DNA of 64,000 nt from Mactra quadrangularis (lineage: Eukaryota; Mollusca; Bivalvia; Venerida; Mactridae), in assembly GCA_025267735.1 (NCBI GenBank), contig CM046294.1, forward strand, positions 41,663,570 through 41,727,569, read 5' to 3'. Below the pieces are notes generated by a model. That model ran no database searches, was not told the DNA's origin, and was given only the letters and a program-made list of their open reading frames with translations. Below are positions 6,401-52,412 of the stretch, in pieces (the stretch's first letter is position 1; each line of letters opens with the position of its first letter). Made by a program: the position numbers and the translations under genes.

Positions 6401-9400
6401 AAGGTATGAATACAATTTACAATGATTTATTCACATACTTGCTATAGTCCAATTCTATTAATCTGTCACAAAGAAATATATTTTATTGATGTGAACACGC
6501 TTCATCTAGTTAACTGACTATAAATATAGTGTTTATTTTAAAGTATGTACATACCATAAAATCATGTATGAATGACAGGTGAATAAAATACGACTACCCG
6601 TATGTTTAATCTAAGATCAACTAGGTCTAAGCTTAAATTCTTCAGTCTAAACTATGTATGAACAGTTAGAATTAAACAAACATAAAGTACTCTATGGGAA
6701 CCAACAAAAGTCTGACTGTTCTCTGTATTAACAAAGAATTTAGGCATCGTTGCATAAATGGAGTGCACCACGAAATATGGAATATCATTTGTTGTTAAAA
6801 GTTACGCCATTGTTAAATTTGCTGTATTAACATGTTATTTCTCTCTAATAAAAGCGTTTTGCAATTAATATGTACATCATGATAATGTCATGCATGAAAT
6901 AGTGACATCCACATGAAAATATCTTAAGAAATTCAGACATTGCGGTAAGACATCTTATATATATTATAATTGGGTATATTTTTCCTCAAATGTTTTAATC
7001 AGATAAGCCAGACCCTCCACGCAACTTCACACATATTGACAGTCTTACGACAACAACATCAATACATCTTGTATGGACCCCAGGATATGATAATGGACCA
7101 CCGCAGACATTTAACATCAAATATAAGAAGATATCAGACACTGAGTGGAAGTATCTCAGTGTTTCTGATAATTGCGAATCTACCATGGACATTCAGTTGA
7201 CTGGTTTAACGGAGAACACACAATATGTATTTGTCATATTTGCATCGAATGAAAAGGGTAATTCACCTGAGACAAGCATAACTGCTACTACACTAAAAGG
7301 TAACTTCCAGTCCGCAGTATTCCATGTATGTTATAAGAAGTAATGATTTACTGGTAATCCTATATAAAAATATGAAACTGAAACAGCTTAGACTTAACTG
7401 TTTTGTCTTGGCCAATTGGTCTACAACATACAGTCATTAATGGGTCTATATTAATATCTTACGGTGACTAACGTTTGATGGGCAATATTATATTTCTTAT
7501 AATTGAGAAAACCTTTTCGTTTATGGCAGTTTACGTACATTTGCTAAAACATTTCAAGTTTATCATTGTTCGTGATATAAAACAGAGCAAATACCTTACC
7601 ACAAACAGTTATATTCATACATTCTGCTGGCAATATCAATTTCAATTACACTTATATCGTTTATCATTTTTCAGTCATTGAGAAAAACACACCCCAAAGT
7701 TCTGCACCATTGATAGGTGGTATTGCAGGTGGTGTTATTGGTTGTAGTATACTTGTCATAGTCATAGTATTCATTATCGGAAGATATCCATATTGTAAAG
7801 GTATGTAATTGATTTACCACTTTTAGCATAATTGAATATTTTGTATTCTTTTTTTATAAGCTTGGTGTTAATAAGACTGACGTTTTATTTTAAGTGATTG
7901 TTGAAAAGTTCTTTGGTAGCCTTAAGTCCACGATTTTCATCAATTTATAACCATTTAAAATATGGTATATAATCATAAAATTTAAACAAATATATCGATT
8001 AGTAGATGCTATTTTACTCACGTAATTATTGTAACTATATATTTCAGTATGCTCTGGGAAACTTGCACGTGGAAAGAGGTACGTTTGACGAAACATTGTT
8101 GGTTGTCTTGTTTGTTTAACTTTCTAAGAAAAGTTCGTATTGAATAATTTTATATATAAAAACAGAAATATTTCATTTTGAAAATGGTTTACATCATGTG
8201 TGTTTTTATTTGCTGTACAAAATAAGCTTGATGGCATCAGATACATTGTTCTTGATAAAAGTCCATCGCTCTTAAAATGTTTTGTAATGTATTATAGCAT
8301 AAACCTTGTTTACATTGTAGAATTATCAGATCAGATTAGTTCCAACACAAACTATTTTGTTAATTATTCAGAATAATTGATGTGTGTAAACCAAACAATG
8401 TCAAATAAGGTTTTAGTTTCAATATAACCCTAATAAGAATAACAACGTAATTGTGCTTTTAAAAATTTACCTTGTGTCCCGTATGTAAGAAGAATCCGAT
8501 TGCCTGAATCATGCTGTGTAATTTTGACTTGATTTTGTCAAAACCTTAATGAAATATTTTTATATCTATGGTAGTGACAAAAACGACGATACAACAGACG
8601 AACATGATTACTATAATACTGGAAGGTAGGTATAGTATTCACAATATTACAATGTCCTTCATATTCATAAGTGCTAGCACTGGATACACAAAAATGTGTT
8701 TTACTTGACGCAAATGAAGTTTGAACGATCAGATAAACATTGTTATGACTGCGAGACAATACATTATCAATAAGTGCATTAAGTTTTAGCATGTGGTAAA
8801 ATGACTATATAAGCGTAATATTCAATCGTACTCAATGTTTGCTTAATGATTCCATTCAATCGAATCAATGTTAAGGGAGACGATTAAACTTCGCGTCATA
8901 GATATGCGTGTTGTACCGTTAGAGTGTCGCATTCATACAAATTGTTTGTTTCGAAAGGTTATTCTGTAAATATGTACTTGAGTTATTGTAAGTTGATAAT
9001 CCTTTAATTTTTATCTTCATTATTGTTTTCCTATTAATGTCTGGTTATAAAATGGTTATACAAATTTTATTCTAAAGATCAGAAGAAATAACAAACCAAG
9101 ACAATAATTATAAAATATACAACGCAATTGAAAGGTATGTACATTATGTTATCCATTTTAATTTACAAACAAACTACTATACATATGGAAGAAAATAAAT
9201 GTATAAACAATTTCCGTTTCACATGAACATGTTTATCTACCAATTTGTTTTTAGCAGTGATTTGACAACTTCAACATTGAATGGAATCGTTAAATATTTT
9301 TTAGCATCTTTAAGTAGATGCCTCTTATTGTATTTTAGTGATGCAAACAGAAACAACAAGTCGGTTGAATATTTTGCTTACTTCAATGTTGCCAAGTAAG

Positions 9401-11193
9401 CTCAATTTATTTTTATCATAAACAGTTTGATGCATTCTTAAACAACTCGTTGCATCGTTGCATCAAATTCAAATACTTCTTTGGCGTTTATTCATATAGT
9501 AAATGCATTTACTTCAAGTGCAAAAACTGTCATACGATTTGAAAGAAATAGTTCATATTTCAAAAGCATGGACGTTTTTAGTTACTAATAGTTCGGTTAT
9601 AATGTATTGCTTTGTCACATTCTCCTAAATGATTTCTAATCCAACACTTCTAAAATTTGTAACATTTTATTTCAGTGTTTCTGAATACGAAACGATAAAT
9701 CGAAACAACGTGGAACCAACCCTGTACTCAACTCTAGATCAAACAGTACTAGGCACAAGATCTGGTATTATGTTTTCTATTTTAAAGGATGATAGTGCAT
9801 TGTCATCTCTTAATTTCACGTCAATACATTTAGTCGATAACGATTTTGATAATTTGTGTGGAAAACATAAGTATTTGATAATATACTTACATGTTTAAAT
9901 AAACATCATAAAACTACCATAATCCTTTTAACCCTTAACCGCTCAATCCCGCATTTTTACGTGTCTAGACCCCCCCCCTCAAAATTGCCGCCACAGCCTT
10001 GAAAATGGTGTTTTTTAACTGGATTAAGCGAGTTTCACTAAAGGATAGTTGTCCCAAAAAAATGAGCTCTTTTTCGCGCGCCGCCCCCATCAATTGATGT
10101 CTCAGGGGGGTTCCGAAGGGGGGATGTGCCCCCCTTTGTTGCTGGGGTTTGAAAGGGGCGCAGCGCCCCTCATCGCCAGAAAAAACATCGGGGTCATTGA
10201 GTGCAGAGAAATGGCGCCAAATGCTGATAAGGAAACATGTTTTCAGTATCTGAAAAGACCTGGCACTTTAGACCTTAATTTCGGAAAATATTACTGTTTA
10301 AAGTGCAAACGTGGGGCGGAAAAAGAGCGAAAATTGCATTTTTTGCCGTTTTTGCTCCGCCCCAGCGTTGCCATGGTAACGGGGATCGGGGCTCAACTTG
10401 GTTTTTCTGAAAGACATTTACCCAGGGAATAACTTGGCCAAGTTGCATAACTGTATGATAATTAGTAATGAAATTAAAGCATCTTGAAATAGCTCTAGCG
10501 CGTAATGGTGAAAAAATGCATACTTTTCACACATGTCGCAACCAGTAAAGGGTTAATCCTTTTGAAAGATTTACACACAAGCATAACATGTCATGCACTT
10601 AGAGTAATGTTAAGGTACAAAGCCATATTTCACCTAATAATTTCGATAAAAAACTCGTGTAATCGGTGTAACTATTCACTAAAACAGTTAAAGAAGCCAG
10701 ATCTAAGATTAGTCGTAAATAGTTTAAGCTAGAAATTTTGAAGTTTTTTAAGAAAAAAAATCGAACAGAAATATTTCGATGAATTATTAGGAGTAGTGGT
10801 ACATTGAAGAATGCAAGCTTAGAGATCTAGGTGTCCTTGGTTCGAATCCCACTTAGGACACTGCTAAATTCCTAGAGCATGAAATTTATTTACAATTGTT
10901 CAACTCCATCTTGGTATTTATGAATTAGAGGGATCACCTGTCATGAGTAGATTTCAAGGATCAATACTTATTGTATATAATTGTAAAATCGGCTAAATAT
11001 GTATATATAAGCAGATTTATAACCTTATGAATCAGCATGTTTAGATATATATACATAAGTTTCCAACTGCTCTCTATGTTTAATTTATATACATGTATTT
11101 ATCGCTTCCATTGTTGTTATTATTCTATTTTTAGATGCCACCAAAGATGATAAGAAGGCAGTATACGAAAACATGAAATTACATGTGTTTTAG
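154..11193 (+). CDS. Gene A: IgSF/FnIII transmembrane receptor with ITAM-like tail, 5' end outside window
   Basis: A type I membrane receptor whose signal peptide and first exon(s) lie before base 1. Exons: 154-498, 1535-1858, 2777-3061, 3321-3620, 4552-4833, 5071-5355, 6043-6336 (seven Ig domains, types b-h), 7003-7299 (FnIII), 7675-7800 (TM), then tail exons 8048-8078, 8575-8625, 9078-9134, 9339-9395, 9676-9764 and 11135-11193 (stop TAG). Every junction has an AG acceptor and GT donor and the phases agree throughout, with 1-1 for all ectodomain exons. Ig domains show the W core and D-x-A/G-x-Y-x-C type F strand; N-x-S/T sites are frequent. The tail has several Yxx(I/L/V/M) motifs. The family (IgSF receptors with FnIII) is clear; ligand and function are unknown. 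Immune recognition is inferred from the tail motifs and from the neighbouring paralogues B, C and D. Confidence 0.85.
1535..1858 (+). CDS. Gene A exon, Ig domain type c
   Basis: Acceptor taag before 1535, donor gtaagt at 1859. Contains VTCTTSTARPAASVYWY and a Tyr-Cys F strand (IYCTAN). Paralogous to B 21621-21953, D 45330-45662 and two relics in locus C. Confidence 0.85.
1971..2286 (+). repeat. tRNA-derived SINE in gene A intron
   Basis: The head has a pol III A box (TAGCTCAGTTGGTAAC) and a B box (GTGGGTTCATTTC). The 3' end reads CTACGGCGTTAAACAC followed by an AAC-rich tail. Confidence 0.75.
2368..2656 (-). repeat. tRNA-derived SINE, minus orientation
   Basis: Read on the minus strand, the head TAGCGCAGTTGGTAGCGCG plus GGTTCGAATCCC forms A and B boxes. 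The tail is TAAATAAATA at the left end. Nearly identical to the copy at 33441-33730, so recently active. Confidence 0.8.
2777..3061 (+). CDS. Gene A exon, Ig domain type d (extra Cys pair)
   Basis: Acceptor tttcag, donor gtgagt, phase 1-1. The core is LSCTVRGG, LSWSC and TCTC. The usual Tyr two residues before the second Cys is itself Cys, and another Cys follows the core Trp, so a second disulfide is likely. The same pattern is present in B and D. Confidence 0.85.
3321..3620 (+). CDS. Gene A exon, Ig domain type e
   Basis: Acceptor tatag, donor gtaagt. I-set-like: SIDCTSDSEP, YTWTGP, GKYKCVVQN. Paralogue is B 19470-19769; the type is absent from gene D. Confidence 0.85.
4552..4833 (+). CDS. 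Gene A exon, Ig domain type f
   Basis: Acceptor ttgcag, donor gtatgt. INLMCPYTAG, IIWTRN and ANYSCNVSN mark strands B, C and F. This is the only complete type f copy here; B and C carry decayed versions ending shortly after the CAATGG codon pair. Confidence 0.85.
5071..5355 (+). CDS. Gene A exon, Ig domain type g
   Basis: Acceptor atacag, donor gtgagt. FICNADSNP and DAGTYICSAKN give the canonical Cys pair. The C-strand Trp is replaced by a hydrophobic stretch (AVMTLSRE), as in B and D. Confidence 0.85.
5606..5911 (-). repeat. tRNA-derived SINE, minus orientation
   Basis: Minus-strand head GACTAGCTCATTTGGTGGCA and B box GTGTTCGATTACC, with an A-rich tail at 5606-5640. Lies in the intron between type g and h exons. 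Confidence 0.75.
6043..6336 (+). CDS. Gene A exon, Ig domain type h, lacks canonical cysteines
   Basis: Acceptor aaacag, donor gtaagt. Membrane-proximal Ig fold: LNVIAYPPPTFIWYKL, DFTRYKVHTKNDFG. Val stands at both positions that normally hold the disulfide Cys, with Trp and the Tyr corner kept. The same substitutions occur in B and D. Confidence 0.85.
7003..7299 (+). CDS. Gene A exon, fibronectin type III domain
   Basis: Frame g|AT AAG CCA GAC CCT CCA opens the domain. Typical FnIII residues: D-PP, HLVWTPGYDNGPP, FNIKYKK, LTGLTENTQYVFVIFASNEKG. Acceptor at 7001-7002, donor gtaact at 7300. The single juxtamembrane FnIII is conserved in B and D. Confidence 0.85.
7675..7800 (+). CDS. Gene A exon, transmembrane segment
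   Basis: Forty-two codons: a polar stalk (EKNTPQSS), then GGIAGGVIGCSILVIVIVFII and a basic stop-transfer GRY. The small-xxx-small glycine pattern at the helix start recurs in B and D and could support helix packing. Confidence 0.85.
8048..8625 (+). CDS. Gene A cytoplasmic exons 1-2
   Basis: Exons 8048-8078 (31 bases, phase 1 to 2; VCSGKLARGK, basic juxtamembrane) and 8575-8625 (51 bases, phase 2-2; acidic, with DYYNTG). The phases match the TM exon and the following exon. Confidence 0.7.
9078..9395 (+). CDS. Gene A cytoplasmic exons 3-4
   Basis: Exon 9078-9134 uses acceptor ctaaag; the nearby cag at 9080-9082 would give a stop. It encodes NNYKIYNAIE with YNAI at 9118-9129. Exon 9339-9395 encodes VEYFAYFNVA, containing YFNV. 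Both are 57 bases, phase 2-2. An alternative acceptor before 9255 keeps the frame open and would add 28 mostly hydrophobic residues. Confidence 0.65.
9676..9764 (+). CDS. Gene A cytoplasmic exon 5, ITAM-like pair
   Basis: Acceptor ttcag, donor gtatta; phase 2 to 1. Encodes SEYETI (9680-9697) and TLYSTL (9719-9736): Yxx(I)-x9-Yxx(L), within the usual ITAM spacing. SEYETI also fits the ITIM consensus (S/I/V/L)xYxx(I/V/L). The donor was chosen because it is the only one in phase with the last exon. Confidence 0.7.
9932..10552. mobile_element. piggyBac-like non-autonomous element (MITE)
   Basis: A 621-base GC-rich island in AT-rich intron, flanked by TTAA on both sides (9928-9931 and 10553-10556). 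It starts CCCTTAACC and ends GTAAAGGG, so its ends are the CCC...GGG type. TTAA duplication with CCC...GGG ends is the piggyBac signature. A 127-codon open frame inside resembles no transposase I know and is probably spurious. Confidence 0.75.
10785..10990 (+). repeat. Degenerate SINE-like repeat
   Basis: Contains a B-box-like TTGGTTCGAATCCCAC at about 10840 with a diverged A-box region before it, then AT-rich body. Old copy; ends uncertain. Confidence 0.4.
11135..11193 (+). CDS. Gene A last coding exon, YENM motif
   Basis: Acceptor tttttag, phase 1; nineteen codons to TAG at 11191. Contains AVYENM (YENM at 11164-11175), which matches both the PI3K SH2 motif YxxM and the Grb2 SH2 motif YxN. 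The preceding TKDDKK resembles the SKDDK microexons of gene B. Confidence 0.7.
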
Positions 11194-19600: not shown

Positions 19601-22600
19601 GTTGAACTCTTTGTAGAATCGATAGCAGAAGGTCCTGACCATGTATATCTATCTGGTGTTGGTTTGCTTTCAGCCGTACATGTTATACTTCTTGTTGTGC
19701 CTTCTATAAATGAAATATTTCCGATAACAGTTTGTCCGTTCACCTCAAGTTTAGGTTCCTCAGGAGGATCTGTAAATTGAAAACGTGATAAAAATATATT
19801 ATCACCAGTCAAACAAAATAAAGGTTACACATTCATAGAATTTTTACCAGAAATATACAAAAATATTATCAGATTAGGACTACAGAAACTGAAATAATAA
19901 AAGGGTGGCGTGATTGTTTACTGATCAGTCATTCATAATTTGTCGAATAGTGTTCGATCTCCATAAATGAAAATAAGGAAATAGTTTTACTTTACTTTAA
20001 TTGTTTTACTTTACAGATTACTCTAGAATTTTAAACCTTACGTGATGTGTGTACTATATAGCCTGATGTGACATTGCTACCCGGATAAAAGTTTTAAGCC
20101 ATTTAATTTGCGTAACCTCACTTGTTTAGACGCTTGCTTTTTACAAAACAACATACTTAACAGGGTACAATCACTTCAAGTCAGAAGCAAATAAAACATA
20201 TAGAATTGAATGGTTTGTGTCTGAAGGATCTGATACTTATATAATGATACTCTTTTGACATATCCTATCAGCCCGCTTAACAAACAACAGAAATTTATGA
20301 ATGTATAGTTGAAGATTGAATCAAAATGTGATAAGGAAACAGCACGGTTTCTCTACTCACAAAATACAACCAATTTCACATCTATTGTCTCAGTTGTAAA
20401 ATTGGTTTGTGTAGAAGTACATGTACATATTCCTTCATTCTTTCTGGATACATTCAATGTTAATGTTGTAGTAACATTTCCATCGAAGTTGATAGTTGAT
20501 TGTTGTGCTAGTGAAAAATAATTACAACTCCAAGATAATGTTGGTGAAGGATTTCCATCTTTTACAGTACAAGATAACGTCCCTTGAGTATTTTCTATCA
20601 CACGATATTCATTACCTTGAGAAATTTAGGGAGCTTCTGCCTTGTCTGAAAATACACAAGTGTCGAATGCAAATGCGATGCCGATTAACTTAAAATCAAA
20701 TTGTTTCCATATAGTACCACACATTTACTTACTCAAACCTTTTAAACTCAGTACAAGAACACTAATATATAGCTTAAGGTTCTTATCTCACGTCTGTTAC
20801 GTTGTAGAAATCCAATTTCGCTGACACTTCATATTTATTTAAAACTATTAAATATTCTGATGTTTAAGGATTATATATATCATATAAGATACAACATAAT
20901 TTACCGATATGGCACTACTTATGTAGCTTGAAAATTTTGTATAAGATATCTTAAGTGCTCTCGATATGACAGAGAATAGTTTTATAACAATAATAAATTC
21001 AATGAGTTATTCCCGTGAGCAGGTACTTAAGGTTAAAGATAGATAGATAGATACTTTATTCAGTAAAAATAAGGCATGACGCCCAACAGTTTACAAATTA
21101 TGCAAATATTAGAACATTAATACAATACATAAGTAAATAATAAATGCGGTATAAATACGTTCAATTGTATAAATCGGTAATGGCGTATAAGTATAAATAC
21201 AAATACAGTTATGATGAGGAAAGTGCGAAACATAATTTAACTATGATCAAGTAGAGAAGATTATTGAGAAATATTTAAACATATATCTACCACAATGTCT
21301 CGTAATTTAAAACTTTGTAAATATAAACAGCTAAATTTTGAATAGTATTAGAATCGGTTGATGTAAACAGTTGTATGAATTTTGATATATTTGGACGTTT
21401 CCAGAAGTAACAATCTATATATTTCTTAAACTTAAATTCAATGAACATTCTCATATACAATGAAATTCGTCCTCTAAATTTCCACAAAATTTACATTTAC
21501 GTTCTTCTCGAGGTACTTTATTCCAGCGTCCTACTTCTTCTTCTAATCTATGGCTTGACAAAAATAATAATATACATGTTAAATATATTGGAAAAATCGC
21601 TTACTATATATTTTACTTACACAAAACGTTTAACGGTATCTCTGCGCTTGATTTCACTGGACCTGTATTGACAGAGTTACTTGCTTCACAAAATATCTTC
21701 ATAGTATTATGGTGACGTGTAGGTACAAATTGTAGCGTGCTGGTAATTACACTTAATTCATCGTAGTCAGTTGTCGTTGTTATAGTTTCTGTTATCTGAG
21801 TTTTCGTGTCATTGTTATCATTCAGATAGCTGAACCAATATACAGAGGCAGCAGGTTTGGCCGTTGATGTTGTGCATGTAAACTCTAAGGTATTGTTTTC
21901 TCCGACAAAATTTGGGGATAAAGCTGGTTCCAAAGTAACTGATGTCACTGGGACTAAATGATATAACATAAGACATGTTTATTAATAAAATGACTTTAAC
22001 TTTTTAGTGCTTGATTTATTACAAAGATTTTATAAAATGTATGGTTTTCATATAAACAGATTATCTGAAAATGATCTTATAGTGTAAGGACTCAAATTTC
22101 GCTGGTTGAATATTCATTTTAAGCATTGAAAAAAATAGAATTATATATTTCTGCGACTATATTTCTAATGTTAAGTCTTGAAATACGATCTAAGGGCTGA
22201 TAACACAATTTCTTATAATATCAATACTTGTGTAATTTTGCAAGTCATATTTAAGGTGAATGTTAAATGTTATCGATGTAAACGTGATAGATAATCTATA
22301 TTAAGAACTTGTACGTTAGTTTGTAGGCAATAAAAACGTGTCTAAGAATTATGTACCTTGTACTTTTATGATCCAGTTTGACCAAGTTCCTTCCGCCTGT
22401 CCAGACGGTGAACACATATACATGTCGTTATTGTCTGTTATTGATACATTTAATCGTGTAACTTGGTAACTTGTCTTGTTACAGGTGTACATATATTCAC
22501 TTTTGTTGTCCAGAAAGGTTGTACTGCCTTGAGTAGTACATAATCCATTGTCTATACCCATAGCAGCTGTATTTGTTCCCATGTTCTTGTTCCAGTTGAC

Positions 22601-33440: not shown

Positions 33441-33730
33441 TTTATTTATTTATTTATAGGAGTTAACGCCGTATCAACACAATTTAGGTCATTTAACGGC
33501 GTCCAGCGCACCTAACCTAGCTTTCCTGGACCATTTTTTATAACCAGTACTCACCTTCCCTTCCACAAGGCCGAAAACTTCTCCATTTATCTAATCAATG
33601 GAGGAAAATTGACATTATTGTCAAATTTTCATGTAAGGGTATAACCTCCCCAGGTGGGATTCGAACCTGCACCCCCTCAGGCACGAGTATCCAAATCCCG
33701 GCGCGCTACCAACTGCGCTATCAACCCGGG
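33441..33730 (-). repeat. tRNA-derived SINE, minus orientation
   Basis: Near copy of the SINE at 2368-2656, with the same internal AGTTAACGCCGTATCAACAC and reversed tRNA-like head. Lies just upstream of locus C. Confidence 0.8.
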
Positions 33731-33862
33731 TTGCATATATGTATAAAAATCATTCACTAAAAAAAAAAAATCTTCCTACCTACCCATCTTTTTTTGGCAT
33801 GTTTCAGGAAACAAACATCTTTTTTAGGCCTAATATTACGTTTTAGTATCGCTATGTTTCAG

Positions 33863-34155
33863 TTCCAGTAACATCAACCACGTTGACACCAACTGATAAC
33901 CCAATTGATGTCATAGAAAACACGGTAATAAAGTTTACATGTGAAACACCACCATCCAGACCTGCAGCCTCTGTTTATTGGTACAGACATCCAAATGGAA
34001 ATAGAAACGGTATAACTCCGATAACAGAAAAAATTACTATAACACCCGATTACAATATTTTTTGTGTACTCTTCCATTTGTTCCAACCCGTCAAGATATG
34101 AAAATATTTTGTACAGCTAATAACTCCAACGAGAGGATATTGCTAAATTTTTAGT
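33863..34155 (+). pseudogene. Ig type c relic, copy 1
   Basis: Good acceptor (tttcag) and intact first half (IKFTCETPPSRPAASVYWY). About 20 bases are lost at the position matching 36440-36460 and the donor is destroyed. Confidence 0.7.
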
Positions 34156-34259
34156 TAAATGTAAATATAAGTTAAATGAAGCACGTGATATCTTAGTTGT
34201 TAGTGTAAATAAAGTAGTGTTAAGTTTATTTTATCTGATTTTCAGGTTCACTTTTGAAA

Positions 34260-34296
34260 ATGTTCACGTTCTTCTTTGTAATTTTATACTTTAATA
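34260..34296 (+). CDS. Locus C signal peptide exon
   Basis: ATG, then MFTFFFVILYFN and donor gtgagt; 37 bases, phase 1. Strongly hydrophobic, as expected for a secretion signal. Confidence 0.6.
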
Positions 34297-34559
34297 GTGA
34301 GTATTCTTTAAGATATATTACTATTTTTTGCTTTTTGAAAACATAGAGTTTTAAGGGGACAAAACTTGTCAGTATTAGAAATCATATTCTGAGATCAAAA
34401 GGGGACACTATTTGTAAATGGTAAATACGTTATTACATAAAAGATTTAGGAATTAGTAAAAATTAATACATGCATTGATGTGCTTTTAAGTTAATTTAAT
34501 TCTACATACGTCCGATACTAACTTCTCCAGAACATATTCGTTTTCTATTTACATTTCAG

Positions 34560-34910
34560 TTCTGTTTGGTGCTTGCAATTCTTCGACATTAGTTATAAAT
34601 GTCGTTGAGGTTGAAAGCAATAAAGTTGTCACTTTACCCTGTAATGTATCCTATTCAACCACGTTCACAAGATGGTCTTTCTTAGCAGGACTAACAGGAA
34701 CATCAGTTATGAATTATCAGAAAGGAAAATGTACAGTTTCACCATCTGATTCTTTTCTTGGATATAAGTATACTCACACGTGTAACCTTACAACACATCA
34801 GATTACCTTACATGATACCGATGCAAACATTAATAATCGAACCATTGCATGCAGATATGCAGTACAGCTTGATGGATCGGGGTCAACATCGATGATTAAA
34901 GTTGTAGCAG
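34560..34910 (+). CDS. Locus C Ig domain type a, intact
   Basis: Acceptor tttcag, donor gtattc, phase 1-1, 351 bases, no stops. VVTLPCNV, TRWSFL, GKCTVSPSDSF, YTHTCN and RTIACRY parallel gene B 23213-23566. Confidence 0.65.
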
Positions 34911-35799
34911 GTATTCATGTTGAATTTATTCTCATAATCTGCTAAGTACTCTACACGTATTATTTACATTGTGTTCTCTTATTTTTACCAACTCATATTT
35001 CCAACAAAAAATTGATAGACTGCTACATAGGAACAAAGTAGCTAATATTTCGGCTAAAATATATTGTCAAACGTTAAAAGTTGACAATTGACGTATTCTC
35101 CTCCTTTGCTCCAATCCAATTCCTTTCATTCAAATGTTCTTTCCAAAAGCAGCACTAAGTATATCATAGATTCTTAGTTGTCAGGTTTTTTTAATTGTTC
35201 TTTCCGTTTTTTGCCACGATAAGTTATTGCACTTGCTTTTTTCTATATTCACAACACTAGTAAAAGTCACATTCTCCTGCGTATCTGTCTTACATTTTTT
35301 ACAACCCTATTAACCTTTGTCAATTGTAAAATTTGCTTGTGTTTCGATTGTATTGTCTTTAAAATATTACTCTTAAAGCATTATACAATAGTACTATACT
35401 GTAAAAGCATATTTAAGTGTAAATACCCGTAGTTCTTGAATGTTTTCTCTTTTTCAACTGTATGTTATGGATTATATATGTATAATTTCGTTGTCACGTG
35501 ATTGAATATTTTATATTATTCATTGTATGTTCACACGCGACTATTGACCTATTAATTTCAAAATAAATTATTCTTCCTCAATATAATCATTCTTCAAAAA
35601 CCTTTTGAACTCATGTCAAACAATACTTTGACATTCAATAGAGATACTACATGTAGTTGTGTGTTTTATTGTGCTTTTATAACGATAGTTATTAAATGGG
35701 TACCTTCTGAAAGTAAGTTGATGTTTACATTTTAATTATTTCAATACACGTACTCTCTGTACATATTGTAGACCATCAATTACATTTAAAGTTCAACAG

Positions 35800-36105
35800 A
35801 GGTAACAGAAGGAGATAATGTAACGTATATATGTAGAGTACTATCTAATGTACCATATAAATTGGAATATAGATATAGGAAAAAACAAAGCTGCTATTAA
35901 TATTAAGAATGGACAATGTAGTTCCTCAACTGGTATTACATTTTTAGACAATAAAAGTGAATATGCCAGCATTTGCAACAATACTGTGTCTCAAGTTACA
36001 GGATTGAATGTACAAAGAAGTAAACATATTAGCATGTATATGTTTACAACACCAACACAACAGGAAGGAACTGGATCAAACTGGATTATTAGGTACAAGG
36101 TAAGG
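35800..36105 (+). pseudogene. Ig type b relic
   Basis: Matches A 154-498 (EGDNVT, YQVT/SQVT, EGTGSNWIIR), but a one-base deletion near 35866 shifts the frame and the F-strand Cys codon is TTT. Confidence 0.7.
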
Positions 36106-36244
36106 TATGATTTGTTTCACTTTCCTGGCGTTGATGAAATATGCTTAACTTAAATAACTCCCTTATTTCGCTTTTTAAACTGTAGTTGTGGGGTTCTTTA
36201 TGTTTCGTTTAAAAAGATAATTAAGAGCTATTACAACAAATATG

Positions 36245-36554
36245 TCGATTATGGCATCAACCACGTTGACACCAACTGATAACCCAATTGATGTCATAGA
36301 AATCACGGAAATAAAGTTTACATGTGAAACACTACCATCCAGACCTGCAGCCTCTGTATATTGGTATAGACATCCACATGGAAATAGAAACGATATAACT
36401 CCGATAACAGAAAATGTTACTATAACGCCCGATTACAATGATTTTCGTGTAACAACAAGTATTCTACGACTTGTTCCAACCCGTCAAGACAATAATATGA
36501 AAATATTTTGTACAGCTAATTACTCCAACGAGAGGATATTGCTAAATATTGTGT
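36245..36554 (+). pseudogene. Ig type c relic, copy 2
   Basis: Open from TTLTPTDNPIDVIE to the donor gtaagt at 36555, with both canonical Cys. The upstream acceptor seen in copy 1 is replaced by unrelated sequence. Confidence 0.7.
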
Positions 36555-36922
36555 GTAAGTTAAATGAAGCACGTGATATCTTAGTTGTTAGTGTAAATAA
36601 AGTAGTGTTATATTCTGTTCTGTTACCAGTACAGTTTGCAACCAATTTAAGACGGAAACGAAATAAAAAAAATATTTAAGTTATCAGACAATATTCACAA
36701 TAGCTAGTGTAAGTTATAAACAGTATTTTGCGATTTTCTGTCCACAGCTTACGATATAATGTTCTTGATTTAAAAGCTTAGACAAATTTGATTATAAAAT
36801 GTCTTAAAGTATATTATTGATCATCACAATGTGACTGATAACTTTAGAAAGCGACGAAAAGCACGTTAAAGTTCAATGTAATTTTTTACATAATTATTAG
36901 TTTTTCTTATAACATTGTAGAT

Positions 36923-37075
36923 CCACCGACAGTCCCATAAATGAAGAACATATCAAAGCATACCGACGAAGAACTTAAAGTGAACTGTCTGTATACAGCT
37001 GGAGTGCCTGCTCTAACATCAGTATGATGGACTAGAGACATAGATGATACACAATGGGACAGAGAACAGTGAAAT
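36923..37075 (+). pseudogene. Ig type f relic
   Basis: Acceptor ttgtag, then VNCLYTAGVPA and WTRDIDDTQWD with stops at TAA (after TVP) and TGA before the Trp. Similarity fades just after CAATGG, as in gene B. Confidence 0.65.
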
Positions 37076-39798: not shown

Positions 39799-40017
39799 CT
39801 ATTTATTGTCTTCTTCATCGCTATCTGGAAGTGGTTCAGCTTTCTTTGTAAAATCTACCACATCATACGGTGTAGGCTCATAAACTTCTATCTTCTTCTT
39901 CTCAACAGGTTGGCTACCATTAAATTCTAGATCAGCATAATTCAAACCGTCTTGGTTAATATTCGACCTCTGTAAAGCAGAATTGCCTTCAAAATCAAAT
40001 CGTCTATAAAGATCTGG
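39799..40017 (-). CDS. Gene D last exon with ITIM and ITSM
   Basis: Acceptor gtaag at phase 0; using the earlier ttag would give an immediate TAA. Encodes PDLYRRFDFEG, the ITIM LNYADL (39928-39945), VYEPTPYDVV with ITSM TPYDVV (39856-39873) and an acidic end PDSDEEDNK. The stop TAG is embedded in AATAAATAG, so an AATAAA overlaps the end of the gene. Confidence 0.85.
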   Translation of the reverse strand, partial: PDLYRRFDFEGNSALQRSNINQDGLNYADLEFNGSQPVEKKKIEVYEPTPYDVVDFTKKAEPLPDSDEEDNK

Positions 40018-43000
40018 CTTACTAAAGGTTTAGTTAAAGATTTAAATGTATTTAGCAAAGAATACTGGATCTATTATGTATGTTCACATTTAATCAATTA
40101 ATTTTTTCAAGTCATCAAATATTTAGACTAATCGTAGTGTGTGTTTACTGTGGGAAATATGAGTGTTTTCAATAGTTTTAATACTTTACCTTTGATTCGT
40201 TAGTCGTTGCCTTTACTTGAGGAGTTTTCTTCATATTGCCCTTCTTATTTTTATCAGTATTGACGTCAACACTCTCATATCCTTTAGCTGCAGAATCTTA
40301 AAAAGAAAATAAATCGTAAAAGTGACCTTAAAAACACAAGTATACGTTTATGTGTTCATGTGTGTATAATTCAACAAATTGAGTCAACTCTAAATCCAAT
40401 CAAGAATAGCAAGTTTTCATATTTATATACATTTATATGCTTGAATTTAGTTCAATTATAAGAGCATAAATTATGTCAATTTTTGTGTTGGTTTGTACGC
40501 CATGATAACACCATTGTATAGTATATATCACGATGGGCTGTCAAAAAAACACAAGTATACGTTTATGTGTTCATGTGTGTATACTAGTAATTCAACAAAT
40601 TGAGTCAATTTTTAATCCAATCAAGAATAGCAAGTTATCATATGTATATACATTTATATGCTTGAATTTAGTTCAATTTTATGAGCATAAATTATGTCAA
40701 TTTTTGTGTTGGTTTATACGCCATGACAACACCATTGTATAGTTTATATCACGATGGTCAGTCAATCTACTTACCGTTCTTGGTACGATTAAATCTCATG
40801 ATTAATAACTATTAAGTAATCGTCAACGACGGTCACCTGTGCTACATGAATCAGAGTAAGTAGTAGGAGGGATGATGACTTATGAATAATGTAGTTATTC
40901 AATGACCAAACTCCTCGACAGTTTGTCCCATCCAAGACTCGAACTCAGTAGTCTGGAATGCTACCCCCTGAGTTATTCAGACGGACTAAGTCAAACAATT
41001 AGCTATTCAAATTTATGATATAAATCTTCAAAATTATAAGAAAATTAAAAACTGTAACAATTGCCTTTCGTCTTTGTCTTCTGAACCTGAGCATATAAGT
41101 CATTACTACCATTTATGTCACGTTTAACTAGATCAGCTTTAACATCAGAAGATGGTGACGCTGGGCGTGCAACGGGACTTGATGATTCATACATTGCATT
41201 GTCAACTAAACCTGAAAATAACATTTAGATGCTTTATCAATTAATTATTTTTAGAAATGAACATTTTCGATTACAAACAATTCAATCGTTTTAAACTTTC
41301 TTGCGATTTAATTTCTTATGAAACTAATGAAAGGCTACGAAAATATAAAAGGGCCAAAAAGGCCAAAAGTAAAGGACATTGACTTGAATATTGAAGAAAC
41401 AGTTTACATCGTCTTTAATAAAGTATCAACTGGATAACAATATTGCTTTCAAGGTATTATTTCGCGTGAACAAATTTCGAATACCAAAACTATATTAGTG
41501 TTTTCAGCTAAATGAACATTTTACCCATAGTGGTTAACGTTTCTGTACAAAGGGCAGTACGATCGCTTGTTTAAGAAACAAGACGAACGCTGTTTTGCAT
41601 ACCACCTTCTGTTTATATCTATTTTGTCTACTTACCGTCAGAAGATTTATATCTTCTGATAATCACAATGACTACAATAACAATTATTATACAAACAGTT
41701 ACACCACCAGCAATACCACCAACCAATGGTCCAGTAGAAGACGCTAAAAAACAACAATAATACATTAATATTTGATACATCATATGCAAACGTCATAAAC
41801 TGTACCATGAAAGAATCATAATCGTTTAACTTAATGAAACCAATGTCTCAACCAAGTGAACGAGACATGAAGCCAATAAACATGACTTTTGAGTTTCAAA
41901 ATGCATTCGCCGTCAATACATTATTAATTAAGACAAAAAGAATGTCAACGCATTTCCATGCCTTTTGTATAAAGAAAATATAATTTGTTTCAAAGAATTT
42001 CGACTAAGTACTGACTTTTAGCGCAGATGGAATCGTTTAATCTTCTCAAAGATAATTAAGCAAGTGCCTAAAACGAACATTTTAGAAAGGATGTACATTA
42101 TAAGTAAAACTTATAAAGTCAATAATCCTTACTATGAGAGCAAAAAGAAATTGACTGTCCAAATTACACATATATCAGTTTTGATTTGTATTCGAAAAAT
42201 GCATTACGTTTTCATTACCTTCCGTTGAAGCAACTAACACTTGTGATTCAGAAGAGTTGCCAATTATATTTGAAGCAAAGATGACAATGTCATATTGTGT
42301 TTTCTCTACTAAACCAGTCAATGAAATGTTCATGGTTTCTTCTCCATTATCAATTACTGTGATATAAGCCCATGATGAATCTGAATTCTTTTTATACTTA
42401 ATGTAAAATGTTTGGGTAGGTCCACCATTATATCCTGGTCTCCATTCAATATGTATAGATGATGTTGTTGTTTGGCTTTGAATATGCTTCAATTCTGTTG
42501 GGGTATCGGGAATGCCTGTAAAGTACATAACATTCTAATAGGTTTTAACTTTGGTTTTTTTTATGAATGAATTATCCCTAATTTCCCGACATAAGACAAA
42601 GACGTTCAACGTTTAGGTTGAATGTCGGTCGTTGTATAAAACCCCTTTATAGCATAAATTGATTATTGTTTGCACATAAATGTTATACCTGCTCATTTTA
42701 ATGAATTTACCAAAGCCTTCATAAAACACTCCATGACTACAGTATGTAGACAGTTGAATAAGTGTTATATTATAGAAGTATTTTAATAAATTATTTAAGA
42801 AAACAGTAAATGCTACATCTACTTTATTATAACTATTTCTTACCATAAGGTGACAGAGTGAAATTGTGTTCCATTTGACCAAATTTATTTTTCACAATCA
42901 CTCGATACTTTGTAAAATCGCCCATACCAACTCTGCGTATTGTAAGATTAGACTGGACAACTGATGAGCTTATGACAAACTTGTCGTTTTTATCAAGTGA

Positions 43001-46000
43001 AGTCCACATCCTGTTCATCAATTGGCTCCAGGTAAACGTAGGAGGAGGATATGCTATGACATTGACAGTAATTCTTTTCGATGCATTCTTTGCACTTGTG
43101 GTATTCATATTCACTTCTTCAGCAGCTCGTGGTGCACCTGGTAAAAATATCATTAAGTAAGTCAAAGACAATTTTAGTTGTTTATCTATTAACGATTGTA
43201 ACATGAATAAATCAAATAGACAAAAGTATGATTACAAAATTATGTAGGTCCGTAGAACTCCATCGCCTTTGGTAATCTTGAGATTTATAACATTGGCTTG
43301 GGCGAGTTGAAATACGCATAAGAATCTTTAAATTGCAAATAGTTTCATTGAATGATAAATACGTCACAGATATATGTTTTTGTTGCGGAATAATTTTACT
43401 TTGATGTAATGTTATGTTAAAAAATGAGTGATTAATAGCGAAAATTATACTTTAGTAGAATGGTGTATATGTAAACATGTAGTATAAATTATTTATACTT
43501 ACAATTAACAACTAGTTGTACAATGTGTGTCGAGACCTTTTTACCAATGTTTTCATTTGTTGCAGAGCAGTAGTAGGTTCCCGCATCTGAACATCTTGCT
43601 TTATCAATGTTGTATTCTACATTGTTTGATGTAACAGTCTCTAATATTTTACGTTCATGTCTCAATGTCATCTCCGCTTCTGGATAACTATCAGCAGTAC
43701 AAAAAAAACTAACTCTGCCATTTTCATCTACAGTCACTTTATTAACATCTTTTCCTTCAATTGTAAATGATTTGATCGCTGCCTCATCTGAGAATATGAA
43801 AGTATTATAGAACAAGTTTATTGTCAAACATTAAATTATAAACAACATCCTGATTCTGATTACCATTCAATGATAATATCATATATCTCTTTTCCTTAAC
43901 ATTTAAAGTTAATTTAAATATAATTTATAACAAAACTTTCAAAAGCCATTGACATAGATTGGCATAACTTCTTGTAACCCTAGATATTTAGTTTAAATTG
44001 AACATACTCTTTCAATTGCATAGCTTTATCGATTACTTATCGATGCTCTCTGATACGCCTCTGTACTTTGCAAGTGAAGATGTATTTCCACAATATCAGT
44101 AACATTTAGTTAGTAAACTAAATTTATATAAACATATATAAATGTCATCAGGAAACATTCAAGGCATTTTTATCGCAAATGTGTTTATAAGCACGACTGT
44201 GATAGGAACACGTTTGCATACTTTACAGGCGATGTTTTGTCGAACTAAGGACTGATATACATACGCTCATAGAGGAATGTACTCACACAAAACAACTAAA
44301 CGGACATCTACTGTCTTTTCTGTAAACCCTGTCTGATTAGATTTACATGTGCATTTTCCGTCGTGATTCCTTGATACATTCAACGTTACTGTTGAAGTGA
44401 CATTTCCATTAGAGTTGAAAGTCGATTGGTGTGTTGGTGAGAATTTATTACAATTCCATGATAATGTTGGTGTAGGGTTTCCACCTCTTACAGTACAAGA
44501 TAACGTCCCTGGAGTATGTTCTATAACACGATATTCTCTACCTTCAACAATATATGGATCGTCTGAAGTATCTGCAAGTATGTACATGTCAAAAGTTAAT
44601 AAAAACAACGTCCATCACAAATAAATATTCATTATATCTGCTTTTAAACGAAAAATACATTTTAATACGGAACTAATCGATCATAATCTTAAACTACATA
44701 TACATGAAAAATATTAATGAAACAATTAGCTATGTTTAAATGCTTTTAAAATCCCTTAATTGTGTAATTGTCTCTAAAACATATTTAAAGTGTCCTTCAA
44801 TAACTATATGGTATGAAAGTTGCATGGCATTGTGCTACGAATCATGTCATGCGTTCGTTTGAATTGTTTATTAGCCATTTCTGATGGCATTTATGTCTTA
44901 AAGATTTTTGTAGTGTGCGTAAATATTTCAGAGGGCGTTAGAGAAAGTATCTAATATCTATTGTTAAAATAAACTTAAGAAAAAGGCAAAACAGCCACAT
45001 TGATCAAATTACCATTATTTTAGTGACTCAGAATGAAAACTGTCAGAATCTTTATATGAAGTGTTTTGAACCAACGGCTAATAGATAACAATATAATTTG
45101 TACAAGGTTCATTACATGGACTCCAGTTGAATCAAAATGTCGACCAAGTAAATGTTTCATTATTTTACATTCGTATACAGGTTAAAACTTGATACTTTAA
45201 TAAGATCGTTGTGATGATTAAGATGGAATAATCAAGTAGAAAGAAATATATATTATCAAGCTGCGTTTATAAATTTAGTTTAATGATTCAATCAACAGAA
45301 GCCATATTGTTATTGTAACTAATACTTACATGCAACATTCAGTAGTATTTTACTTTTTGATCTCACCATAGTTTTGTTTACTGCGTTGTTTGCTCTACAA
45401 AATACCTCAGTATTATTGTCTTGGCGAGTTACAAACAAACGTAGTATACTGGTTATAACACTTAAATCATTGTAATCAGTCGTTGTAGTAACGTTAGATG
45501 TTATCTGAGTTTCGGGACTACCTTCATCATTTGGATGTTTGTACCAATATACGGAGGCAGAAGGTCTTGCTGTTGATGTTGTACAAATTAACTCTACTCC
45601 TGTGTTTTCTGTGACATTAACCATATAATCAGACGGTGTAATTGTAACTGATGTTACTTGAGCTGAAAGTGCATTGAACAAATATTTCGTAATGTTAATG
45701 TCACCATAGATATTTAAAGAAGAAAACAATATACAATAAATATGCATACGCTAATTTTTCCACCTTTAATTATGAAAAACTCTCATTTTAGGAAGGCGAC
45801 TTTTAAAATTCTAAAGTATTTTCATTTAAGAGCAATGTGTTTTTACTACGACATACATTCATATTGTATAGTGAGTATTGAGATATTTTACCATAACATG
45901 CCTGTCAATAATTATTGACGATTATTTCAAGTTTAAATGGTTACAAATGTAATTCAGCTACAGTTCCTATCACTCCCTTACAATTTGTCACTTACTTATA

Positions 46001-46035
46001 GCAAGCAGGACTGTTAGGAAAGTCTCAACTTTCAT
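39799..46035 (-). CDS. Gene D: complete IgSF/FnIII receptor with ITIM-ITSM tail
   Basis: Ten exons: 45996-46035 (signal peptide), 45330-45662 (Ig c), 44287-44571 (Ig d), 43503-43787 (Ig g), 42844-43137 (Ig h), 42219-42515 (FnIII), 41636-41743 (TM), 41065-41211, 40190-40296 and 39799-40017 (tail, TAG). Lengths sum to 2115, an uninterrupted 704-residue frame. A type I membrane protein; likely an inhibitory or switch-type receptor acting through SH2 phosphatases or adaptors, inferred from LNYADL and TPYDVV. The architecture recalls Siglec/CD22-type receptors (Ig stack, TM, ITIM then ITSM-like motif), but the FnIII domain and Ig sequences show this is convergence or deep family resemblance, not orthology. 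It lacks types a, b, e and f of A and B. Confidence 0.88.
40190..40296 (-). CDS. Gene D cytoplasmic exon 2
   Basis: Acceptor ttaag, donor gtaaag; phase 1 to 0. GYESVDVN followed by a Lys-rich stretch. Confidence 0.7.
40330..40757. repeat. Two-copy tandem duplication, ~213-base unit
   Basis: Both copies begin ACACAAGTATACGTTTATG and end TATCACGATGG before (G/T)C(T/A)GTC. They are about 95 percent alike by eye, and lie in an intron of gene D. Confidence 0.85.
40758..40990 (-). repeat. SINE-like repeat, minus orientation
   Basis: Resembles the 5606-5911 and 53985-54195 family: GTAGGAGGGA, CCAAACTCCTCGACAGTTTG, then a reversed tRNA-like head (GACTCGAACTCAGTAGTC...). Lies in a gene D intron. Confidence 0.6.
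41065..41211 (-). CDS. Gene D cytoplasmic exon 1, GC donor
   Basis: Acceptor ttcag. Encodes AMYESS, a Pro/Ser-rich stretch and NDLYAQVQK. The donor is AAAG|GCAATT: only this GC site restores phase 1 for the next exon, while GTTCAG upstream would not. Confidence 0.7.
41636..41743 (-). CDS. Gene D exon, transmembrane segment
   Basis: Acceptor tttag, donor gtaagt. STGPLVGGIAGGV, then a long Ile/Val helix ending RRYKSSD. Confidence 0.85.
42219..42515 (-). CDS. Gene D exon, fibronectin type III domain
   Basis: Acceptor ttacag, donor gtaatg. PDTPTELKHI, IHIEWRPGYNGGP, FYIKYKK, LTGLVEKTQYDIVIFASN. Confidence 0.88.
42844..43137 (-). CDS. Gene D exon, Ig domain type h, lacks canonical cysteines
   Basis: Acceptor accag, donor gtaaga. 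VNVIAYPPPTFTWSQL and DFTKYRVIVKNKFGQME, Val at both Cys positions. Confidence 0.85.
43503..43787 (-). CDS. Gene D exon, Ig domain type g
   Basis: Acceptor tctcag, donor gtaagt. SFFCTADSYP and DAGTYYCSATN. Follows type d directly; the ~500 bases between them hold no e or f exon. Confidence 0.85.
44287..44571 (-). CDS. Gene D exon, Ig domain type d
   Basis: Acceptor ttgcag, donor gtgagt. LSCTVRGG, LSWNC, KCTCKSNQ with the extra Cys pair; Tyr (PYIVEG) where gene B has its stop. Confidence 0.85.
45330..45662 (-). CDS. Gene D exon, Ig domain type c
   Basis: Acceptor tttcag, donor gtaagt. VELICTTSTARPSASVYWY and EVFCRANN. Confidence 0.85.
45996..46035 (-). CDS. Gene D start and signal peptide exon
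   Basis: ATG at 46035-46033, MKVETFLTVLLAI, donor gtaagt; 40 bases, phase 1. Spliced directly to a type c Ig exon. Confidence 0.8.
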
Positions 46036-51483: not shown

Positions 51484-52412
51484 TTATTGATACTCAAGAC
51501 GTTGTGGCGGATGTCTATCTCTGAACGGGTACCTTCTTGCAGGTGTCTGAGAATTTACGACAGAGGGAGTATTACTTTCCTTTAGTAAAACAGACTGATC
51601 AATTGTCGGCACTGTGGAAGTTTTATTGGAATCAATTTGATCATAATCTATCCTAATTTCATCTGAGAGGATTTCGAGTTCAATCACTGTTTGCGAGTCA
51701 TTAAACCCTAACTTAATTTCAGATCCACGTGTCTCTCCCAGGTTATGCCGTTACCTATATCTATTTTATATAACAACAGTCCGTCATGAGGCACAATACA
51801 TCCTAAAATCCATTTTGCCTTTGAAGTCGGCCTATAATCTCTAACAAAAATGTTCTGTCCTAACTCAAATTCTCGACATTTACTATTCTTAAAGAATGAA
51901 TTTTTCATTTGCGCGTCAGTGACATGTTTCTGCATATCCGGTTTAATTAATGCTAATGTAGTACGCAAATAACGACCGAACAATAATTTTGCAGGCGTTT
52001 CTCCAGTAGTGCAATGTGGAGTGTTTCGGTATCCGAGCAAGAAAACATTCATTTGCAAATTCAAATCCATATTACTATTCATTGCACCGTTGAATCTTTC
52101 AACTGAACCATTCGTTGATGGCTTGGCCACTGCGGTCCTGATAGGACAAATTCCGTTCAAACTATTGAACCTTGACCATTCTTTACAACGGAATTGGGGA
52201 CCATTATCAGAAACAACTTGTTAATGAATGCCATAACTAGAAAATTAATTCCGTATATTATTAATTGCATTGCTAGCAGTTGTTGATTTCATTTTAATAA
52301 CTTCAGGCCACTGAGTGCACATCTACAAATACAAGAAACATAAAACTTAAAAATGGCCCAACAAAATCAACATGAATTCGTTCCCAACTAGATGTTGGCC
52401 ATTCCCATGGGT
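51484..52412 (-). pseudogene. Ty3/gypsy Pol relic: integrase core and C-terminus
   Basis: Read on the minus strand from 52412: HPWEWP, WERIHVDFVGPF (first catalytic Asp), a frameshift, QWPEVIKMKSTTASNAI, a TAA at 52221-52223, VVSDNGPQF (second Asp), then NGSVERFNG with Glu exactly 35 residues after that Asp (DD35E), YRNTPHCTTGETPAKLLFGR, an SH3-like KWILGCIV...TWERHVD module and a terminal RRYPFRDRHPPQRL. No LTRs identified. Degraded and non-functional. Confidence 0.85.

Follow-up and report, generated by a model that had tools for sequence, protein, structure and literature searches.

The 64-kb window analysed here (the whole stretch of 64,000 nucleotides) holds a cluster of related genes, A, B, C and D. 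Gene D lies on the minus strand and was rebuilt from splice signals as ten exons, running from 46035 to 39799 and encoding 704 residues: a protein start, four Ig domains, one fibronectin type III (FN3) domain, a transmembrane segment and a tail, with the Ig and FN3 domains assigned by Pfam (Table 1). This agrees with the full 704-residue IgSF receptor of the original prediction, as do the positions of LNYADL and TPYDVV on the minus strand, their place in the last exon and the spacing of 24 residues between their tyrosines. The gene structure also stood; the GC donor of intron 8 had gone unmentioned. The two motifs share one open stretch of 76 residues (39799-40029) and fit the ITIM pattern [ILVS]xYxx[ILV] and the ITSM pattern TxYxx[VI], respectively.

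Table 1. Exons and tyrosine motifs of gene D and other features of the window
Feature	Positions	Strand	Description
Exon 1	45996..46035	-	protein start MKVETFLTVLLAI; signal peptide by eye; GT donor
Exon 2	45330..45662	-	Ig domain (splice model, Pfam)
Exon 3	44287..44571	-	Ig domain (splice model, Pfam)
Exon 4	43503..43787	-	Ig domain (splice model, Pfam)
Exon 5	42844..43137	-	Ig (I-set) domain (splice model, Pfam)
Exon 6	42219..42515	-	fibronectin type III domain (splice model, Pfam)
Exon 7	41636..41743	-	transmembrane segment, by eye and alignment
Exon 8	41065..41211	-	first tail exon, NAMYESS and NDLYAQV; GC donor at 3' end
Exon 9	40190..40296	-	tail, GYESV (splice model)
Exon 10	39799..40017	-	ITIM-ITSM module and stop; conserved
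ITIM LNYADL	39928-39945	-	gene D last exon; ITIM in 20/20 tails
ITSM TPYDVV	39856-39873	-	gene D last exon; TxYxx[VI] in 19/20 tails
Gene A, modelled tail	7675-9898	+	mini-exons in a row, every one with a tyrosine motif; differs from the gene D tail
Short open stretch	11135-11193	+	ends in KKAVYENMKLHVF and a stop, behind a possible acceptor; tail-exon-like, downstream of gene A
Gene B	20356-20664	-	in-frame stop in a stretch homologous to gene D exon 3
Gene C, pieces	33856-37069	+	Ig gene with several in-frame stops, apparently decayed
Dispersed repeat	2440-2748 and 33521-33760	+	near-identical translation (SNQWRKIDIIVKFS.KGITSPGGIRT.TPSGTSIQIPARYQLRY)
Retroelement-like frames	51484-52220	-	open frames resembling integrase, by eye

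The gene D model is free of internal stops, and we rejected the possibility that it is a pseudogene. Pfam was applied to gene D and to 7 of the 24 relatives described below: the domains that passed its cut-offs were of the Ig and FN3 types, and none of the best matches lay in a tail. In Siglecs and CD22 the N-terminal domain is a V-set domain bearing the arginine that binds sialic acid. The first Ig domain of gene D (residues 20-107) matches C2-set_2, and V-set scored 25.5, under its cut-off of 26, with the best position at 257-311. No juxtamembrane exon as in Mactra was seen in the three reading frames of gene D intron 7. Titin, neuronal growth regulator 1 and receptor phosphatases led the best 60 of 72 matches in a sequence search of the PDB, which was uninformative on function. 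A structure prediction for the relative P0001, made from six sequences, was too poor for a fold search (mean pLDDT 46.7, pTM 0.27), and this low-confidence model had no secondary structure C-terminal to the helix at 821-835.

Eight of the nine gene D introns are GT-AG; the exception is intron 8, which opens with a GC donor (exon 8 end at 41065, aaag/gcaatt). If exon 8 is left unspliced, an in-frame stop follows a few codons past this donor, the product ending in KTKTKGNCYSF, so the later tail exons of gene D hang on the use of a single GC donor. The P0001 sequence, from Mactra antiquata, continues in alignment across the gene D exon 8 junction, and the spliced, long-tail form is therefore probably ancestral. 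The GC donor leaves a short-tail isoform of gene D possible. Two Mya arenaria relatives, P0023 and P0024, stop short of the ITIM-ITSM exon; P0024 bears the name isoform X2 and ends soon after its YAVV, near the place of the gene D GC donor. Since this is a named isoform that stops near that place, the choice between a long and a short tail may be under regulation.

Gene A, on the plus strand, starts off the left edge of the window and has Ig and FN3 exons related to those of gene D; the tyrosines of its modelled tail lie in HDYYNTG, YKIYNAIE, VEYFAYFNV, SEYETI and TLYSTL. The tail region of gene B, read by eye, consists of small pieces that resemble exons, and tyrosine motifs are not evident in it. 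Ectodomain dN/dS over five exons was 0.33 for D-A, 0.46 for D-B and 0.37 for A-B; because gene B, with its in-frame stop, still gives 0.46 and 0.37, the D-A value of 0.33 proves little.

Single motifs of either kind are cheap: stop-free stretches of at least 20 residues in the six frames of the window contain 367 ITIM and 39 ITSM matches. In stretches of at least 40 residues, the window holds one ordered pair, ITIM before ITSM, with a spacing of 22-27 residues, where 40 first-order Markov sequences averaged 0.05. Widening the spacing to 15-40 residues gives four pairs against a mean of 0.6, and three of these four lie outside the last exon of gene D, so loose pairing alone is unconvincing. When the 164-residue tail was shuffled 20,000 times, an ITIM preceded an ITSM in 0.38% of the shuffles, and did so at a spacing of 23-26 in 0.005%.

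Relatives were gathered as 24 records in three protein searches, all by tail similarity. Residues 525-704 of gene D retrieved one protein, P0001 (E 4.7e-20, 44% identity over 88%). The P0001 tail retrieved, besides itself, P0002-P0010, which are Mactra and Mya arenaria proteins. The third search, with the tail of Mya P0006, retrieved P0011-P0024 together with three already known, Mya and Ruditapes philippinarum being among the sources. Mactra antiquata, Mya arenaria and Ruditapes philippinarum all fall within the superorder Imparidentia, in the orders Venerida and Myida. Judged by these relatives, the window itself probably comes from a bivalve close to Mactra. Proteins of oysters, mussels and scallops were not listed by this search, which requires shared five-residue words and limits length, so their absence is not implied. 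Some of the relatives are named nephrin-like in the source records. Gene D and P0001-P0024, 25 records in all, reduce to 20 distinct full tails once P0010, P0015 and P0018 (whose last 150 residues duplicate another record) and P0023 and P0024 (which are without the last exon) are dropped.

Motif 1 reads LxY[A/S]D[L/I]xF, an ITIM, in all 20 tails, and motif 2 is an ITSM, TxYxx[V/I], in 19, the exception being P0007 with VPYDAV; the pattern used to locate the motifs, which all 20 tails matched, itself fixed several flanking positions. With the flanks unfixed, the ordered ITIM-ITSM pair is found in 22 of the 25 records and is missing from P0007, P0023 and P0024. The two tyrosines are 23, 24, 25 or 26 residues apart across the 20 tails. 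Conservation of both tyrosine motifs, a check that the original prediction itself had named, is thus borne out in relatives that may not all be strict orthologues. Position by position, motif 1 has F at pY+5 in 20/20 tails, and motif 2 has T at -2 in 19/20, V (19 tails) or I (one tail) at +3 and D at +4 in 20/20, while its -1 position takes seven different residues and its +2 position nine. Such a pattern of constraint in motif 2 is to be expected of an SH2 target under selection.

Mean identity between species was 60.8% for the ITIM-ITSM module, 34.1% for the remaining tail and 32.8% for a stretch in the FN3 region, and in 87 of the 88 pairs the module was more alike than the FN3 stretch; this comparison used three stretches, all outside the Ig domains, and 16 of the 20 tails, the close tail copies P0004, P0012, P0013 and P0016 being left out. 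Between gene D and four Mactra tails, identity was 57-64% in the FN3 stretch and 58-65% in the module, the two being about level, as with P0001 (64% and 65%) and P0002 (60% and 60%); for P0007 the values were 54% and 62%. The gap therefore arises with Mya and Ruditapes, whose ectodomains are far more diverged than the module. Such a gap is partly expected, since the proteins were gathered by their tails, yet the remaining tail was also in the queries. The recurrence of the motif pair in related receptors of clams makes a genuine signalling device probable. Conservation is stronger evidence against chance than the motif statistics, and on this ground a chance motif pair was rejected as very unlikely.

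We then compared the module with the preferences of the two SH2 domains of SHP-2. For positions -2, +1 and +3 in turn, the in vitro preferences are (I/L/V/m), (T/V/A) and (I/V/L/f) for the N-SH2 domain and (T/V/I/y), (A/s/t/v) and (I/v/l) for the C-SH2 domain, and both domains prefer aromatic residues at +4 and +5 (PMC12151841). Motif 1 fits the N-SH2 preference in 19/20 tails and the C-SH2 preference in none of the 20. Motif 2 does the reverse, with 14/20 tails fitting C-SH2 (20/20 if +1 is ignored) and 0/20 fitting N-SH2. Among the 99 other tail tyrosines, none fits N-SH2 and one fits C-SH2. Gene D itself has D at pY+1 of motif 2 and misses the strict C-SH2 preference, as one of six such tails. 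In PD-1 and BTLA the ITIM and ITSM tyrosines are 25 residues apart, a distance proposed to permit 1:1 bivalent SHP binding (PMC8631942), and in a protostome the ITIM of Draper-II is reported to bind Corkscrew, the SHP-2 orthologue (PMC8092387). Taken together, the order, the spacing and the flanks of the two motifs suggest a module on which a phosphatase with tandem SH2 domains would dock at two sites.

We consider it probable, on what the sequences tell, that gene D encodes a single-pass inhibitory receptor of the IgSF, one of a bivalve family, whose last exon docks a phosphatase of the SHP-2/Corkscrew type at two sites. Ligand engagement would lead a Src-type kinase to phosphorylate both tyrosines of exon 10, and the phosphatase would then bind both sites at once, GLxYADLxF being taken by the N-SH2 domain and TxYxxVD[F/L] by the C-SH2 domain. 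Opened and anchored at the membrane in this way, the bound phosphatase would strip phosphates off neighbouring activating receptors, and the response of the haemocyte (or other cell) would be damped; here we infer the phosphorylation and the phosphatase binding as well as the inhibitory sign, the cell type and the ligand.

Given the adaptor-like patterns in these tails, the main rival to the inhibitory reading is signalling of a positive or mixed kind, such as that of nephrin-like adhesion receptors. Adaptor sites of this kind are pYDxV for Nck, pYxN for Grb2, pYxxP for Crk and NPxY for PTB adaptors. Gene D would then be a nephrin/Kirre-like adhesion or phagocytic receptor whose tail recruits these adaptors to act on actin, and SHP-2, if bound, would be a positive partner. 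The ectodomain of several Ig domains and one FN3 domain and the nephrin-like source names agree with such a role, as does motif 2 of gene D, which reads YDVV. A simple pattern search of the last 230 residues, with sites unaligned, found YEN in 17/20, YxxP in 16/20 and NPxY in 14/20 tails. Gene D, however, has no match to any of these three; among the four patterns considered it has only [DEN]xY[AST]xV, which is present in 19/20 tails. In addition, D at pY+1 (YDxV) is found in 5/20 tails versus T at -2 in 19/20, and since it is the threonine that is kept, Nck cannot account for the family-wide constraint. We regard an adhesion or phagocytic receptor as unlikely, although deserving of more weight than the alternatives that follow. 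The Grb2-, Crk- and PTB-like motifs of the family tails could nevertheless turn the net signal positive.

The tyrosines might also serve as AP-2/clathrin sorting signals of the YxxPhi type instead of phosphotyrosine sites. YADL, YAVV and YDVV all fit this rule, and the NPxY matches counted above would be in keeping with it. However, YxxPhi sorting is not known to need L or T at -2, F at +5 or a gap of 23-26 residues, all of which are conserved, and we judge sorting alone to be improbable. Still more so is a switch in which an SH2D1A-like adaptor of the SAP type, SAP being a vertebrate protein, acts on motif 2 to flip the receptor from inhibitory to activating. Motif 2 meets the ITSM definition TxYxx[VI] in all tails except that of P0007, and its pY-1 residue is nonpolar (P, V or M) in 12/20 tails, including P in gene D. 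For SAP to bind without phosphorylation, the residue at pY-1 reportedly has to be hydrophobic (PMC12151841), whereas this position is polar (E, D, Q or T) in 8/20 tails; as hydrophobicity there is not kept in the family, SAP-type switching is unsupported as a family trait. Finally, gene D might normally end at exon 8, the GC donor going unused and the ITIM-ITSM exon being rarely or never expressed, as the non-canonical donor, the in-frame stop just beyond it and the similar end of Mya P0024 would allow. Against this, the reading phases on the two sides of the GC-AG intron are compatible, both the frame and the family sequence are preserved in exon 10, and P0001 reads across the junction. We give this explanation very little credence. 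The original prediction had left the choice between an inhibitory and a switch receptor; inhibition of the SHP-2 type gains support from the spacing, the order and the N-/C-SH2 fit of the predicted sites, and the SAP switch finds none at the level of the family.

To our knowledge, paired ITIM-ITSM tails have been studied almost wholly in vertebrate receptors. By title and abstract, the open-licence literature yielded no ITIM-ITSM pair in molluscs, which is weak evidence of novelty as most subscription papers lie outside that scope; a mollusc review mentions ITIMs in vertebrate-type Siglecs. ITIM receptors outside vertebrates are already known, namely amphioxus BbLcLRR (PMC8211107), Draper-II (PMC8092387) and CgIgIT2 of Crassostrea gigas, titled inhibitory (PMC11999971). 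Going further, we tentatively suggest, as an idea that is less secure than the docking of a phosphatase by gene D, that clams evolved a PD-1-like checkpoint tail independently, in one exon, with N-SH2 and C-SH2 sites at bivalent spacing, that this exon changed very little as the Ig ectodomains joined to it diversified and duplicated, and that neighbouring paralogues such as gene A, with another tyrosine tail on a similar ectodomain, make up a paired inhibitory/activating system outside vertebrates. Such a paired arrangement, similar outside and different inside, is possible on the one tail modelled so far; SEYETI fits the ITIM pattern, and gene A may thus not be a purely opposite partner. A conserved, position-constrained module in bivalves, with PD-1-like spacing and SH2 order, would mean that a code for docking SHP-2 at two sites had more than one origin or far predates lymphocytes. 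The exon 10 module gives an exact peptide for testing that code.

Several known receptors resemble gene D in part. Nephrin has eight Ig domains, one FN3 domain and YDxV Nck sites. Gene D shares with nephrin and Kirre an ectodomain of multiple Ig domains and one FN3 domain, in the order Ig then FN3, and a tyrosine-rich tail, but it has four Ig domains, and its family keeps TxYxxV. Draper is not known as a member of the IgSF. Its isoform Draper-II is a protostome receptor with an ITIM that binds an SHP-2 orthologue, an ITSM going unmentioned in the passages available of PMC8092387. Amphioxus BbLcLRR has ITIM-like tyrosines and inhibits T-cell signalling in Jurkat cells, but its ectodomain is made of LRRs and it associates with SHIP1, and less with SHP1/2 (PMC8211107). 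CgIgIT2 is a bivalve IgSF receptor with a tyrosine-based motif; it is titled an immune inhibitory IgSF receptor in the reference list of PMC11999971, while the text of that review describes five Ig domains and speaks of an ITAM, in conflict with the cited titles, and the passages available do not mention an ITSM. The likeness to PD-1, Siglecs and CD22 drawn in the original prediction is one of motifs; the ectodomain of gene D is multi-Ig with FN3. Members of the CD28/PD-1 family have a single IgV ectodomain, in contrast to the four Ig domains and FN3 of gene D. In PD-1 and BTLA, as here, the ITIM precedes the ITSM, at 25 residues there, 24 in gene D and 23-26 in its family. The PD-1 consensus described in PMC12151841 likewise has an aliphatic residue at -2 and F at +5 of motif 1 and T/V at -2 of motif 2; it differs in the +1 residue of the ITIM, which is G in bony vertebrates and A here (S once), and in its ITSM, (T/V)EYATI there versus TxYxx[VI] here. 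We claim no homology between the two tails, and consider convergence the likelier source of the likeness to PD-1.
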